Source: Punctularia strigosozonata HHB-11173 SS5 (lineage: Eukaryota > Basidiomycota > Agaricomycetes > Corticiales > Punctulariaceae). From it: a DNA stretch of 64,000 bases. The stretch is from positions 2,477,323 to 2,541,322 of the forward strand of contig NW_006767434.1 in NCBI RefSeq assembly GCF_000264995.1, read 5' to 3'. Both the position numbers and the translations under genes were made by a program. Shown here one piece after another: positions 1,079-50,871 of this stretch (its first letter is position 1; each line of letters opens with the position of its first letter). The notes beneath the pieces were generated by a model. That model was not told the DNA's origin and ran no database searches. It worked only from the letters and a program-made list of their open reading frames with translations.

Positions 1079-1253
1079 CTAGGGGAAGGAACCGAGTCCC
1101 GCGGTTGACCGACAGCCAAGGACCTTTTCGTGGTCACGGTAGCGCGAAGCGAACTACAGCCACGCGCTTGGGCTCAACACCATTGTCCGATCACCACATT
1201 AGGCAGGCTGAGACGGACCGCGTCTTCGTCCAGCGCCCTACACCACCACGAAC
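1079..1253. promoter_or_regulatory. Bidirectional promoter, mS41 / Mlp1-TPR
   Basis: This 175-bp gap separates two divergent start codons. It must hold both 5' leaders and core promoters. I see no clear TATA box, as expected for housekeeping genes. Confidence 0.45.
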
Positions 1254-4200
1254 ATGAAGACGAGACGACGGACCAAGGCCGCTGCAGCTGCAGCAGGCGA
1301 CGACGATGACAACGCGTCTCAGGCCGGCACCGACGACGGCCAGGGGGTACTCAACATTACACTGCCGAACGACGTCGACATTGACTCTTTGGCAACACTT
1401 CTGCCTGATGTCTCCTTCACGTCGCTTACGCCCAGCGGCGCCGTGGCGCTGATGAAGCTCATTCAAACGCAAGCCATGATGGTGGACAACACTCAGCGTG
1501 AACTGGAGGAATGCAAGGCCGAGGGCGAGAAGAAGGACGTGGAACTCGATCAGGCTCTTCAAGACAAGGAAAATACCGCTCAAGAGCTTGAGACTGCTCT
1601 GCAGCTGGCGAATGACGAGTTGAAAACGGTGAAGGAGGAACGCGACAGACTCGGTGAGCCACCTTTTCCAGCTCCTGTCCGGTGACGGCACTAACAGACA
1701 ACCCCAGCCGCGTCCCAACACACCTTGCAATCCCAGGTTGCTTCCTACAACGCATCTCAGACCAGCTCGTCGACCGAGCTTGACACACTTCGGCATCGGC
1801 TGGACGACTCGGAACGTGAAAAGCGTGATCTTGTCGCGGTCATAACGCGTCTAAAAGAGGACATCACACAACGGGATGGTGAGCAGACACGTCACTGCCT
1901 TCGCAGCACTTGGGATCTCACACAGAGCACAGAGGAAATTCAGACGCTCCGCAGCAACCTCAAGCAAGCGCGTCAAGACCACCAGGCTCTTGAGAGCCAA
2001 GTTCGTGAATTACGGTCTACCGAGACTTCCACGAAGGTGAATTACCGCGACCTTTTTCCTAGATTCATACACTTACTGGTTTGTTCTCCAGTTCAAAATC
2101 GATTCTTTGGCGCAACAGCTGCAACTTGCCCAGTCCGAAGTCCAGCGCACTTCAACCGAGCTCAGCTCCAAGACGGAAGAGTTCGCCAAGTATCGTCGCG
2201 CGCGCCATGCAGAGATTACTCAGCTGCAGGCCAAGTATGATGCGCTACAACAAACTCACGGCCGCACAGAGAGCACGCTGAAGTCGCTCCAGACATCACA
2301 CGCCTCTCAGACCCACCAGCTTACTGCCGCACTTGCTCAGGTCGAGGACCTCAAAGTCAAGGTCGCCGAGCAGGACGCTCGCTACTCGAGCGAGGCCGCA
2401 GGGCTGAGAAGACTCGTAACGATGATGGAAGAGCGCGAGGCTGGTATGAAGATCATCGTCGACAACTACGAGGCTGAGTGGAGGAAGGTGGGCGACGCGC
2501 AAGAGAGGAAGGAAGCTTTGTTACGCGACGACATCGAGAGAGAAAGGCGACGGGCAGATGATGCCGAAAAGCGCCTTGAGCAAATGGAGAAGGTATTCGA
2601 GAAGATGGACCGCGGCGAACTGCCATTCCCCAGTGTCGCCAGCGGTGTGCCGCAGACACCGGGTACACCCGCAACACCGAGATATGCCGGGTCGCCCGAC
2701 GTTTTCATGCAGGGCATCATGGGTCTCAGCCCGACTGTCGCGATGGCTAGCAGGGCGCAGAGAAGCGGCAGGACCTTCACGGAAGTGTATGCGGAATACA
2801 TCAAGCTCCAAGAGGATTTCGCGAAGAAAACCTTCGAGTACGATCAGATGGAACGCACCCTTACCCAGGTGTTAGCACAAATTGAGGAACGGGTACGCAT
2901 CTGTGGCTCGTCTTCCTTCTACCGAGCTGATAGTTACTAGGCCCCGACTCTCGCTCAACAACGTGCCGAGCATGATCGCGCTATGGCCGAAGCCTCCCAG
3001 CTGGCTTCCCAGCTTGCTGACGCTCTAGCGGAGCGTGATAAGCAGACTGCTGCCGCCAAGGATTCCACTCAGAAGCTGAAGCAAAGCGTTCAGGAGAACG
3101 AGATCCTTCAACAACAACTAGATGACCTTGGGCGTCAAGTCCGGACGCTGCTCAGAGAGCTCGGTCGGCTACAAGACCCGACTATTCCACCAGATGAAGA
3201 ACTCGCCCAAGATGAATCCACCGCGCCTGCTGAGAACATTGAGCAGGTCATCACCAACAACCTTGTTCTCTTCCGATCCATCAGCGGACTGCAGGAACAG
3301 AATCAGAAGCTGCTCAAGATCGTCCGCGAGCTTGGTTACAAGATGGAAAACGAAGAGAAGGAGTATCGTGAACGCATGGAGCAGGAGCAGAACGAAGCGG
3401 TGGTCGAAGCCATGGAGATGATCCAGACCCTCGAAGCACGGTTGGAGGCGCAGAGGAAGAGCCACGAGACGACTCTGCAGGCCTACATCAAGGAACGGGA
3501 TTCGTTGAAGGCAATGCTTGGTCGATCGTCACATGTCGGTCCTTCGTTGCCAAACGGCGAAGCTGCTCAGATAAACGGCGTTGTCCCCGATTCCTCCGAT
3601 CACGCCAGGGAACTGGCAGAGATGAGGGAGCGTTATGAGTCTACACAGACGGACCTTGTTGCTGACGCGGAGCGCAATCGTGAGCAACTGGCTGTTGTTG
3701 AGCGCGATGCTGACCGAGCCCGTGCCGAACTCGCTCGGCTGAGCGCGCGTGCTGAGATTTTGGAAGGTATGTGACTCTTTGTGCTCGGCATGGTTAGATT
3801 TTCATAGCGTGTTATCCGCAGAACGTCTGCGTATCTCCAACGACCAATATCAGCAAAAGGTTCATGAGCTCGATGCCCTGTCTGATCGTCATCAGCGCCT
3901 GTACGAGCAATGCACCCGCTATGACATCGAGTGCAATAGGGCTACAGAGGATCTTGCGCTCGTTGCGTCCAAGCTCGAAGAAATGCGCAATGAGAACGCC
4001 AATCTCCGCGCTGAGAAGGCTATCTTGCAGGTGATTGACATGCACAGCGTCGTCAACTTGATGCTGAAGCATCCCAAACAGGACATTCAAGACAGACTTT
4101 CTGAAGAAAATAAGACCTTGTCACTCAATGTTGACCATTTCTCCAAACTTGTGACAAACATTCAGAAAATGCAGAATGACCTGGAGCGCTCCGGAGAGAA

Positions 4201-45559: not shown

Positions 45560-47282
45560 TCACGTTGATAGAACCCGCGGTGAACGTTGCTGTTCGTGCC
45601 GTGAGCTGAACGCACGGCGGTGAACGTAATTCAAACCGCACCTTGCATTAGGGTCGATAGCTTTCAAGCTAATGCAGCTAGAGACGTGAATGAGATGACC
45701 TCTCCTACGCCTCACGAACGCAGCGTAGAGGCTGGCAGCAAGTAGAACTACGCCCGCGCTGACGAACGTAGGGATATGGAACTGAGAGGGTCTGGAGAAG
45801 ACGGCCGTTAACGCGTAGGATAGTAGCTCGGCCATGTTTTGGAACGATGCTTCCACGGACGAGAAGGAGCCGCGAGCCTCGGGTTCAACCTCCTGTATAG
45901 GTGATGTGAGGATCTCGAATGACTGCAAGCGGCGCGCCGTACCTCCTGAACGATAATCTGCACGCAGAGGTCGAAGCCCCAAAGGCCAACGCGGCTGAAG
46001 ATGACACCGACGACGAGCCCGAGCGCGCCGGAGAGAGGACCAAGGCGAGAGCCGCGGTACCAGCTTAGCGCCGCCACGAGGCAGACCGCCTGCCAGGTGA
46101 CGAACCAGAGCCCGGCGCGGATCGGGCCCACCTTGCGCATGGCGCGCGGTGCAAGCCAGGTCGCGGACATCTCGAACCCGACGGAAACGGCGCGCATGAG
46201 GCCGATATGCGTGGGCGTGAAGCCGGCGCTGAGGAGGTAGGTGACCATCTGCCCGCCGAAGGAGAGCACGGTGAGGTAGAGGAGCGAGAGCGCGAAGGAC
46301 GGCAGGAAGTCGCGGTGCTTGACGTAGGCGACTATCGAACTACCTAGAGCGCCCACTCGGGATGCGACGGTCCTCTGCTCGGACCCATCCACGTGTGCGG
46401 CTATGAGCTTAGGTTGTTGGAGTGCTGGCACGATGTCGTAAACCTAGATCTGTTCGTCAGAGCCAGGGCGGATGGCACACGAAGGACAAACGAACCTTTG
46501 CTACAGCGAAGTACTCCATTCCGACCGAAATGATGTTCAGGATGAGTGTAGTCAGCAGCGCTACGTGTATAGATATCCCGGATAACAGGGCTATGCAGAG
46601 CGGACCGACCAACTTGCAGAAGAGGTCGATGCGACGCATCTGCGAGTTAAGCGCTGCGCGGCTGGATAAGCCGACGTTTCGCATACAGACTGTCGGTATG
46701 GGCCCTCACTCTGCAAGCTGCAAGATGACGCCTCGGCAACCACGATGACCTGGTATGTGAAGTCAACGACGGCGTGGAGGACAGGGGCGGTGATAGCATA
46801 TAGCATACCCAATCCCGTTCGACCGATACGGTGTTCATGATTGAACATAACTTCTCTACACAGGCGAGGGGTGCCAGGATGATCAGTAAAACGATCTGTA
46901 GTTTCGCACTTGCGAGGCCCGACACGAGCAAGAGAAAACCCAAGCAAGAGAGTATAGTAGATGCGCGCTGTCCTAAAATCGAGAACCGCACGACCTGCAG
47001 CCGGTCTCCTGTATCCACGTAACGTCCTAAGACAGGGCAGATGATGATGGCGGCGCCTGCCCGGACGAGAGCGTAGATCGACGCCGGAAGGAGGGTATCG
47101 GGGTATACGGCTGCTAGGAAGAGCACCGCGCCAAACTCAAATAGACGAGAGTTCCACGTCGAGAAGAAATGGGAGATATAAAGCCTGCGAGCGATGTGCT
47201 GCGACTGTTGGCTGGACGAATTGAAGTTGGCGGGGTTGGAAGACGTGTCAAGGAAAGGGGCTTGCTCTGCGTCGGCCTCCAT
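45560..47282 (-). CDS. Ferroportin (SLC40-type) metal exporter
   Basis: Five exons (47282-46809, 46749-46710, 46653-46496, 46443-45943, 45892-45560) encode about 501 residues with around ten hydrophobic segments. Conserved ferroportin blocks: ISHFFSTWNSRLFEFGAVLF, LGRYVDTGDRLQVVR, NTVSVERDW, SLQTLNSQMRRIDLFCKLVG (built by splicing a 40-nt exon), GFTPTHIGLMRAVSVGFEMS, RVGLWGFDLCVQIIVQE, and EARGSFSSVEASFQNMAELL. Ferroportins export Fe2+ and other divalent metals; fungal members are thought to act at the vacuolar or plasma membrane. The tail after GHLIH is poorly conserved and could contain another intron. The gene is divergent from the zinc-finger gene, 222 bp between start codons. Confidence 0.88.
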
Positions 47283-47504
47283 AGTCAGGGCAAAACTCGA
47301 AGGACGAGGCTGCCGTCGATATATAGACCGATCATCACCGCCGTCTGCTCTGGACGAGTCGTAAGATGATGATGCATTCGAGGACCGTCCGTGCCGAGAG
47401 CGTGGGAAGCATGGTCGACGGGCAGAGTTGCCTTTTCGGGGAGCTTTGGTGCGATTGCTTCGTCACTGTCGCTACTGCCCACGACGTCCATAGTGCGCAG
47501 TGCG
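47283..47504. promoter_or_regulatory. Bidirectional promoter, ferroportin / zinc-finger gene
   Basis: A 222-bp gap separates two divergent ATGs. No canonical TATA box was identified. The shared promoter allows co-regulation of the metal exporter and the zinc-finger protein, which is inference only. Confidence 0.4.
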
Positions 47505-49506
47505 ATGGCCCTCTCCGACGCCGTCTCATGGCCCACCGCCGACGTCCCCGCCGACGCGCCCCTCATCAAGAAGCCCACCGGACGCGCCCGCCATGACTAC
47601 TCGACCGCCACCGCCATGGGCTTCGATCTCCAGAACGCCGCCCAGAAGGCCGAGTACGAGAGCATAGCGGTGCGTGCACCCGATCGTCCGCAGGGATTCC
47701 CTCGTGACATCGCCACCAGAAATCCGTCCGGGCACACGCCGCGGTGCTCCTCGACAGGAACAGACCGTTCGGCCAGCAGGACTTTACCGCCCTGCAGGGC
47801 CTCAGAGCCCAAGTGAGCGAGTCCCTGTGCAAGACCATTCCGCCGACCGATCTCTGACTGCTCCCGCACACCCAAGGTCGAGAACGAACACCCAATATTG
47901 AAGAGATACGAAGCACTATGGCCCGTGGACGATCTCGCGCGGCAGTATTGGGAGAACTATCGCAGCCACGAAACTTCCAAGGTAAATCCGCCAACACCGT
48001 CGAGCGCGTTCCTGTGTGCTTAAACTTCCTCACAGCGCAAGAGAGGCAAAAGCGGTAATGCTCCCAAGCGGTCCTCTTCACGCAGCGGCCAATGCTCATG
48101 CTGCACGACAGATGCCAACGGCGCCCCTCCCCCGGAAGCGTCTATCGAACCTCCAAGAGATGGGGGGCCATCACAGAACGCGACGGCTCCGGATCTGAAC
48201 ATCGATCCAGATCTCGTACACACCCCACCTCCCGTGCACACCGACTCAGCTGAACCCCCACTCAAGCGCATCTCAAAATCAAGCGCGAACTCCAGCGTAT
48301 GAGCGGCCCACCTTCCGTATCGCTGCCGTCTGACTCTTGCATTCAGGAACTGCGACGCGTCAAATCTGCCCGATTCGAGTGCCATATCTGCGGCGCTACA
48401 TTTACTACGCGAACGAACTGGCAAGGTCTGCTCTCCGAAACTTTCGGTCCTTGCCCCTCCCGCTTATCTCGTCTCAGGGCACCTCGACGCTCACACCGGA
48501 CACAAGCCTTACGTCTGCGCCCACAATTGCGGAAAGACCTTCACGCGCAAATCTGACTGCAAACGGCACGAACAGACGGTGCATGACCCTGACCCCCATT
48601 TCGTCTGCGAGACATGTAAGCGCAGCTTTGCCCGACGAGATCACTTCCAGAAACACTGTAGGTCTCATAGAACAATCTCCGACCTCGTCGCTGATAACAT
48701 TTCCTCATCAGCTCGGGAATGTGATTCATCGGCCCCCAGTCAGGCTGGCCCGTCCACCGCTGGCCCGTCGAGCTTACCATCGGAAGGACCCCCAGCGCCT
48801 ATACCGTCAGGCCCGCCGATCGCCGGCGGAGTGCCCCCTGGCTCCCAGGTTCCGCCCGATGTTTCAATGTTCCCGCAACCTCCGGGCGGCATTATGGTCG
48901 CTGCAGCGGTACGCCCTGACGTCGGCGTTGACGCCGCCTCGACGACGCAGCCTGCTGTGGATCCAAGTTCAGACCCCTCGTCGTCTCTCTTACCAAAACC
49001 ACCAGGCCGAGCGCGACGTGACTACAAGATAGCGGAAGCAATGGGACTGAACTCCGACAATAGTATGGAGTACAAACAGATATTGGTCCGTGTTACCGGC
49101 GACGGCGTGCACCAGGTGGCTGATTCGTTGTTGTCCCTCTCAGAACAGTGTCAGGAACCTATGTAACGAGCATCTGGACATGAGCAAGACGGCGAACAAC
49201 CAAGAAAAGGCTCGCATCAGCAGAGTCAAAGAAGAGGTGTGTGTCCGTCTTCCACAAAGGCTAGCGATCCTGACGACGCCGCTTTCAGGCCATTAGAACA
49301 CATCCACTGCTCGCTACTTTCAAAGACGTATGGCCAGTGGATGACCTTATCCACCAATACATCGAAAATCACCGCTCACACCAGCTGCGCAAGGTCAGTG
49401 TTCGTATATATACTGCGACGGCCCATGGTGATCCATTCTACGATAGAGCATGCAAGTCACCTCCACCGATGCGAAGGCCCGAGCTAGCAGTGTTACCCAG
49501 GTATGA
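47505..49506 (+). CDS. C2H2 zinc-finger protein with duplicated uncharacterised module (may continue into the kinase domain)
   Basis: Exons as read: 47505-47669, 47720-47812, 47877-47981, 48036-48296, 48347-48425, 48478-49085, 49144-49236, 49289-49393, 49447-. Module 1 reads GRARHDYSTATAMGFD, AKSVRAHAAVLLDR, EHPILKRYEALWPVDDLARQ and ENYRSHETSK. Three C2H2 fingers follow (CHICGATFTTRTNWQGHLDAH; CAHNC...H-x4-H; CETCKRSF...H-x3-H), then a Pro/Ser linker and module 2: GRARRDYKIAEAMGLN, LNSVRNLCNEHLDM, HPLLATFKDVWPVDDLIHQY, ENHRSHQLRK. The 50-nt intron 48297-48346, with a CTGAC branch site, links module 1 to the fingers in phase. If the frame runs past 49500 the protein ends at the TGA 49504-49506 (522 residues). 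If the intron there is used, it continues into the kinase below. DNA binding is likely; the module's role is unknown. Confidence 0.68.
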
Positions 49507-49678
49507 CCAATGATCTGCCTCAGCAAGCAGGCGTCAATACGACTCTCTTCATAGGATTCTATATCTTCTTCCGTGCCCATAGGAGGCCCTTTGGCACAGC
49601 TCAGTGGTCCTGTCCCCGTAGGTCTCATTCCAGGGCTACTGCCACGGGTGACCGTGCTTATACATTCCGTAGGCGCTT

Positions 49679-50871
49679 ATGCACAGGATCAGTCCATTTC
49701 CACAGCCTTCGCCTCCCTTACCCGAATTTGTGCATCTGTCCTTGACCGGGGTGCAAGTGAACCTCATAGGGCCGTTCAACGGCGGAGCATATGCGGATAT
49801 ATATACGGGCACGTGGCAAAACGGCCAGGTTGCCCTGAAGCGTATTCGCACTTTCGTCGCGGACACCCATCATGAGGTAGTCTGAATATTACGTGGGTAC
49901 AGCGATCGACGACGCTCATGTCTTCGCTAGTATCAACACAGGGTGAAACGGGAGCTTTCGGTATGGCAACAGATTATGAACCATCCTCGGATCCTGCCGC
50001 TCTTCGGGATAGATTACACGTCGGTGCAGGGATTGCCCTTTCTGGTGTCTCCGTGGATGCATCGTGGAACGCTCCTGCATTACCTCTCCTTGTCCGATCG
50101 CATGAAAGCACCCATAGAATCCCTAGTACGTACTCGTTTGGGTGGACCAGAGCAGCTCTAGTATTGACCATCCATATTCCATCAGCTCTTCGAGATAGCC
50201 GATGCGGTCGCTTTCATACACTCTAGAGGCTTCGTCCACAATGACCTAACAGCCGTGAGCCTCCCTCTCAGGTGAAACAAGGACGACTAATCTCACCTCC
50301 ATGAAGTCCAACGTTCTCCTTGACCACGAAGAACACGTCCGTCTGGCCGGTTTCAGCCTGGCCGATTTACCAGGACAAGCCCACGGCGAGAGCATGAGGT
50401 CGCCCAGGCGTCTCGCACCGGAGCTCCTCCACCCGGAGAAGTACCCAGTAGAGGGCCCGACCCCTTCGTTTGCGACGGACGTCTACGCCTTTGCTTCTCT
50501 TTGTCTGGAGGTACGTCGAATGCGCGACCGCTCGGGGGGCGCAACGTATCGAAACGTACTCATCGCGCCTGCAGGTATACACCCTTCGAATGCCTTTTGC
50601 GGATTTCCGCCTCGATGCCCAGGCTTTGTACGAGGTTGTCCAAGGTCGTTATCCGCGCCGGCCGACACCGGAGGAGTGCGGCGGTCGGGCGATCCCTGAC
50701 GCTATCTGGGCCCTCATGGAAGCATGCTGGGCGGCGGCGGCCGCGAGACCCAGCATGTCGGACGTGGTGCAACTGTTGGCTACCTCCACTCAGCAAGTGC
50801 CAGTGGTGCCTGCACCGACACTGGCTGCACCGACACTACCTGAACCAACCCCGCCTACACCGACGGGTTGA
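49679..50871 (+). CDS. TKL-type kinase domain with degenerate DFG (probable pseudokinase; perhaps C-terminal half of the zinc-finger protein)
   Basis: Exons: 49706-49876 (or from ATG 49679), 49931-50125, 50186-50254, 50307-50510, 50575-50871. Kinase landmarks: LIGPFNGGAYADIYTG (Gly-rich loop), VALKRIR (ATP Lys), VKRELSVWQQIMNHPRILPL (alpha-C Glu), FVHNDLTASNVLLD (catalytic loop, Asp and Asn kept), then VRLAGFSLAD, where the DFG motif is GFS. After that come LAPELLHPEKYP (APE), SFATDVYAFASLCLE and RPSMSDVVQLL. Loss of the Mg-binding Asp suggests a pseudokinase. The type resembles the Tyr-kinase-like families expanded in Agaricomycetes. Three phase-0 introns (49394-49446, 49501-49554, 49648-49705) join it in frame to the upstream zinc-finger gene, giving one 863-residue protein. 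The alternative is a separate gene starting at 49679. Confidence 0.72.

Follow-up and report, generated by a model that had tools for sequence, protein, structure and literature searches.

The window, a 64,000-nucleotide stretch of the Punctularia strigosozonata genome (contig C2, positions 2477323–2541322, of a genome of 33.6 Mb in 32 contigs), contains at 47505–50871, on the forward strand, what is most probably one gene whose product carries a degenerate kinase-like domain. From N- to C-terminus, this putative nuclear regulator would consist of a module with invariant W-P-V-D-D residues (hereafter referred to as the WPVDD module), three C2H2 zinc fingers, a second WPVDD module, and a kinase-like domain of the TK/TKL class that lacks the DFG aspartate. 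A diverged paralogue on another contig (C4:2148732–2150821, locus L012), found by searching the same genome with the module, possesses the same core order. Literature searches covering kinases of fungi, zinc fingers and protein fusions found no described protein with this domain order.

Direct reading of the frames and splice sites gives a join of 15 exons (47505..50871, +), in which 2592 nt translate to 863 residues without internal stops. The introns are short (50–64 nt), and 13 of the 14 are in phase 0, the sole phase 1 intron being 48426–48477. The first-pass annotation had placed exons 9, 10 and 11 at 49447–49500, 49555–49647 and 49706–49876, all in phase 0 and preceded by introns of 53, 54 and 58 nt, and had proposed the same protein length; the join reproduces all of these values, and the profile matches described below bear out the three C2H2 fingers and the kinase fold that it had recognised. 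The start of exon 12 was fixed with the C4 copy in view, and the remaining boundaries are those of the first-pass annotation or follow the likeness of one module to another.

The zinc fingers are encoded by exons 5 and 6 (48374..48668, +). Pfam zf-C2H2 matches three stretches of the protein, the best at residues 218–240 (35.2 bits, against a cut-off of 25.2), and the pattern C-x2-4-C-x12-H-x3-5-H is present. The first cysteines of the fingers are found near residues 220, 248 and 278, and finger 1 is split by the phase 1 intron. With their canonical spacing, and the linker TGHKP between fingers 1 and 2, the three fingers resemble those of C2H2 regulators (PF00096), in which the inter-finger consensus is TGEKP, but differ in being joined to a kinase-like domain and an unnamed module. 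They are predicted to place the protein on DNA. Helix positions −1 and 3 of fingers 2 and 3 read R/D and R/H, respectively, in both copies, which by the Zif268 code presumably corresponds to a preference for NGG-GCG. An optional in-frame intron of 54 nt (48658..48711, +; donor 4.0, acceptor 6.7) extends across the end of finger 3, which would be altered by keeping it or splicing it out; the C4 copy has an intron nearby, just after its last finger (3396–3450 of L012).

WPVDD module 1, at the N-terminus (residues 23–121, exons 1–3, 47571..47981, +), shows 41% identity to module 2, and was also matched by tblastn within the same genome. Module 2 (residues 408–503, 48996..49393, +), encoded by the end of exon 6 and by exons 7 and 8, is 48% identical to the module of the C4 copy. 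Five copies of the module can be aligned, and the W-P-V-D-D residues are invariant in these. No Pfam family matches it above the cut-off (DUF2524 gives a weak match, 17.6 bits vs 25), and no NCBIfam family does at E 0.01. In the PDB, a single-sequence search returned no match at E 10, and a profile search returned two that are not significant (E 1.4 and 8.2); among viral contigs, none of 24 pattern matches was confirmed as a module.

Within this genome, the module looks like a dispersed domain that is not special to the window gene, because copies of it, or matches to it, occur on C26, C1, C5, C27, C9 and C13. The C26 and C1 copies (L013, L015) have no fingers or kinase within 6–7 kb, as judged by tblastn. 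Further matches are located at C5:1129 kb and, more weakly, on C27, C9, C13 and at C5:2225 kb, the C9 match being the one for which sequence was read (1.4 kb, L049). That the module family is mobile or subtelomeric is a guess. Protein matches of the form RP..GGY...W-P-x-DD are likewise dispersed (L049 510–960, C27:3110, C13:765058 and C5:2225297), three of them with near-equal scores, and two more divergent module copies are found on C2, 3 kb apart (L014 3055–3228 and 6108–6325).

The paralogue on C4 reads as ten open exons that encode 535 residues from the first clear finger. A pair of C2H2 fingers is followed by a single module, a linker exon and a kinase-like domain; Pfam recognises zf-C2H2 and Pkinase in the translated protein. 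Fingers, module, linker and kinase follow in the same order and on the same strand as in the window gene, and a single blastp alignment spans residues 246–834 of the window protein and 2–531 of the C4 protein (33% identity, E 1e-99). Six of the nine C4 introns coincide with window introns in both alignment column and phase, three in the module and three in the kinase part, and the last shared module intron leads into the linker in both copies. The other three are a post-finger intron with no counterpart in the first-pass model, a linker intron 12 columns off and a kinase intron 4 columns off. The simple reading of the C4 locus is a single gene.

In a kinase tree of 28 rows, each assembled from tblastn pieces (rows with less than 55% coverage were dropped, and none was obtained for L024, L031 or L032), the window and C4 copies are neither grouped nor separated, a single clade of the two not being rejected (p-AU 0.449). 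The kinase with the highest identity to that of the window is L021 (43%); for the C4 kinase it is that of the window (40%). The case for common descent thus rests on the order, the introns and the long alignment, and not on the kinase tree.

The kinase-like domain and the C-terminal tail are encoded by exons 11–15 (49706..50871, +). Pfam PK_Tyr_Ser-Thr (PF07714) matches residues 578–832 over profile positions 9–257 of 258 (E 2.1e-29), and among solved structures those of ABL1 kinases are nearest in sequence (E 1.1e-21), with the DFG motif aligned to GFS. The Gly-loop is found at 49769, HND at 50237, GFS in place of DFG at 50349, and APE at 50415. In the window copy the lysine, the alpha-C glutamate, the aspartate of HND, the asparagine and APE are retained; the C4 copy reads HGN and GFG, has a lysine for the asparagine and a weak Gly-loop, and keeps APE. 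The column of the DFG aspartate is G in both copies, and among the 23 of 26 control rows in which it can be read there are 21 D, one G and one T, the two exceptions both coming from L025. This locus (1158–3379) holds adjoining kinase-like genes, of which one reads HGN and GFD and the other has no recognisable DFG; they form a second degenerate pair, near which tblastn found no fingers or module.

PMC4718504 defines a pseudokinase by sequence as one that has lost at least one of the Lys, the HRD Asp and the DFG Asp; both copies have lost the last of these. Neither copy has the full set of beta-3 Lys, HxD Asp and DFG Asp of a canonical active kinase. Activity as a kinase is doubtful because the DFG reads GFS in the window copy and GFG, together with HGN, in the paralogue.

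VRK3 and CASK, to which the two copies can be compared, belong to kinase groups other than that of the window kinase, and neither is known to possess zinc fingers. In these proteins, as in the window and C4 copies, GFG or GFS replaces DFG, and the C4 copy has HGN and GFG as in VRK3, which is described as inactive and unable to bind ATP (PMC2639636). CASK, in which GFG is combined with an intact Gly-loop, is described there as atypically active, and CASK and titin as active kinases that have lost the DFG aspartate and kept the G-loop and beta-3 motif (PMC2639636); the activity of CASK is reported to be inhibited by cations, and STRAD-alpha to bind ATP and to serve in LKB1 activation (PMC4718504). 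Analogy with these proteins suggests that the C4 copy is probably dead as a kinase and that nucleotide binding may persist in the window copy.

The precedents of CASK and titin also allow a reading in which this domain of the window gene has an atypical, CASK-like activity that does not depend on magnesium, which would make the protein a DNA-tethered kinase. In its favour, the window copy retains the lysine, the alpha-C glutamate, the aspartate of HxD, the asparagine and APE, and has a Gly-loop similar to that of paralogues with DFG. Against it, the C4 paralogue shows the VRK3 pattern, the HxD aspartate and much of the Gly-loop being lost as well, so that activity would not be a trait of the family. 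I consider this reading unlikely.

A TK/TKL-type lineage of fungal kinases, FslK, is reported to be expanded in Agaricomycetes, with 16 of 241 members carrying additional domains (PMC3937382). The window and C4 copies resemble it in the kinase fold, in a GXRP-like motif (GRYP and GQRP, respectively, by eye) and in their many relatives in this genome, but differ in the fused fingers and module and in the loss of DFG. For the FslK signature, a P at the fourth place of GXR and no AARN, the window and C4 copies read GRYP/GQRP and TASN/KAAK by eye, motifs that are too short to decide the assignment.

Between module 2 and the kinase-like domain, the linker is made of exon 9 (49447..49500, +), open in phase 0 with strong flanking donors, and exon 10 (49555..49647, +), for which the enumerated splice models leave three candidate 3' ends (49617, 49647 and 49653). 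The splice-site profiles were trained on the 18 introns that lie outside the linker in the window gene and in its C4 copy. Donors 49394 and 49501 score 8.0 and 7.8, values reached by 1.1% and 1.4% of GT sites at 40–56 kb, but donor 49648 (CGG/GTGACC) scores 0.3, and 59% of GT sites in the same region score as high. An enumeration of in-frame bridges with introns of 45–80 nt, at most three introns and score floors gave 53 models, among which the first-pass model ranks third; the top-scoring one uses a third intron at 49618–49672, giving a possible exon 11 start at 49673 and a protein of 864 residues. The first two donors proposed earlier are hence strong, whereas the position of the third linker intron is uncertain.

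An open linker is suggestive and not proof of one gene, because shuffled linkers often bridge too. First-order Markov shuffles of 49394–49705 permit an in-frame bridge in 144 of 200 cases and equal the best real score in 8 of 200; for the C4 linker, 115 of 200 shuffles permit a bridge and 67 of 200 equal the real score. The open frame was rejected as proof on these counts. Codon usage, considered for the same purpose, is not decisive either, with values of 0.11 for exon 9 and −0.08 for exon 10, compared to 0.06 to 0.35 for the other exons and an intron mean of −0.17.

In principle, the locus could be divided here into two adjoining genes, one encoding module, fingers and module and ending at 49504–49506, and a kinase gene beginning at the ATG at 49679, the pair having been duplicated together to C4. 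A stop after exon 9 at 49504, an in-frame ATG at 49679, the weak third donor of the first-pass model and the lack of fingers at the 20 kinase stretches sampled elsewhere would all fit this arrangement. However, the −3 and +4 positions of the ATG at 49679 are both C, which is a poor start-codon context, and the intergenic gap would be only 172 nt. In the C4 copy, the kinase frame has no ATG back to a stop at 4095 (L012 numbering), and any separate kinase gene would have to begin within the linker exon, at 4036 or 4075, and inside the frame of the upstream gene, which, if unspliced, stays open through that exon to 4166. Two genes are therefore improbable. One gene is likely because the C4 copy repeats the order and the introns and lacks an ATG in the kinase frame, and because control loci show neither fingers nor module.

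These controls were drawn from the same genome. The window kinase has 132 exon-level matches, five of which are the window gene itself and two the C4 copy. At 20 other kinase stretches (L017–L036, chosen mostly from the top of the 132), tblastn at E 0.01 identified no fingers and no module, although in the crowded stretches L033 and L034 some kinases had only 1–2 kb of upstream sequence included. A finger-like regular-expression match at L024 2119 (+) was not counted, the kinase there being on the − strand. Conversely, no module was found by tblastn at ten stretches around other C2H2 matches (L038–L047), which cover 14 of the 33 C2H2 matches outside the window and C4; one of these, L046, has a kinase 3.8 kb from the C2H2 match, on the opposite strand. 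If the number of kinases is assumed to be 70, chance alone would place 0.075 of the 36 C2H2 matches within 2 kb upstream of a kinase (P ~0.003 for at least two). The combination of domains goes beyond chance because the C4 paralogue repeats it. A local array of C2H2 genes was also observed, with 12 of the 36 matches within 170 kb (C5:1532620–1699280), two of them 1.2 kb apart and with equal scores.

The single gene proposed in the first-pass annotation is thus upheld from fingers to kinase by the C4 order, the introns and the controls, but the join to module 1 is seen in the window alone, no N-terminal module having been found in C4. Module 1 could accordingly belong to a separate gene A (47505–48302), with a gene B, from the ATG at 48299, running from fingers to kinase. 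Exon 4 (48036..48296, +), between module 1 and the fingers, is open and, if the next intron is retained, runs into a stop at 48300; finger 1 can be read in frame from the ATG at 48299, and tblastn revealed no module upstream of the C4 fingers within L012. However, the stop and the start before finger 1 would overlap (ATGA, 48299–48302), and a 50-nt GT–AG intron removes both. Monocistronic fungal genes are not known to be arranged with such an overlap, and a separate module 1 gene is quite improbable.

It is very unlikely that the gene is a decaying, functionless chimera of duplicated pieces, as the degenerate kinase motifs and the lack of a firm place for either copy in the kinase tree might suggest, since all 15 window exons, 2.6 kb in total, are free of stops, as are the ten exons of the paralogue at 33% identity; neutral decay would presumably have introduced stops.

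For a single gene with a degenerate kinase-like domain, a tentative mechanism, somewhat less likely than not, is a switch on DNA. The fingers would hold the protein on DNA, and the kinase-like part, probably not an ordinary Mg-dependent kinase, would bind nucleotide and/or a partner kinase and pass its bound state to the DNA-bound complex. It would act as a switch or dock for the expanded relatives that keep DFG, that is as a signalling or scaffold pseudokinase, with the WPVDD modules as possible interaction or contact parts. Also speculative, and on balance rather unlikely, is the idea that these proteins represent a family of transcription regulators in fungi whose DNA-binding members contain an integral pseudokinase that senses nucleotide or a partner. 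Kinase-type allostery would then be exerted directly on the promoter-bound factor, and the WPVDD modules would dimerise or recruit active members of the expanded group of kinases. Signalling and transcription usually reside in separate proteins linked by phosphorylation, and a factor with its own kinase-like domain would shorten this path. Mushroom-forming fungi possess very many kinases of this class, the outputs of which are largely unknown; a finger-bearing family would offer a direct handle, as its DNA sites would reveal genes touched by the class, and its motif losses make it a test of pseudokinase roles in fungi.

The divergent neighbour of the window gene indeed matches ferroportin (PF06963); its start codon (CAT) begins at 47280, and the gap between the two starts, 47283–47504, is the 222 bases previously given. 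Metal-linked control, proposed on the basis of this arrangement, finds no support, and the iron link was rejected: the 222-bp gap contains no HGATAR site, and the neighbours differ at C4, where ferroportin was not recognised in three scanned pieces and two pieces of the upstream gene matched no Pfam family. A TIM-barrel gene also adjoins the window copy, and an aldehyde dehydrogenase gene lies downstream of the C4 paralogue.
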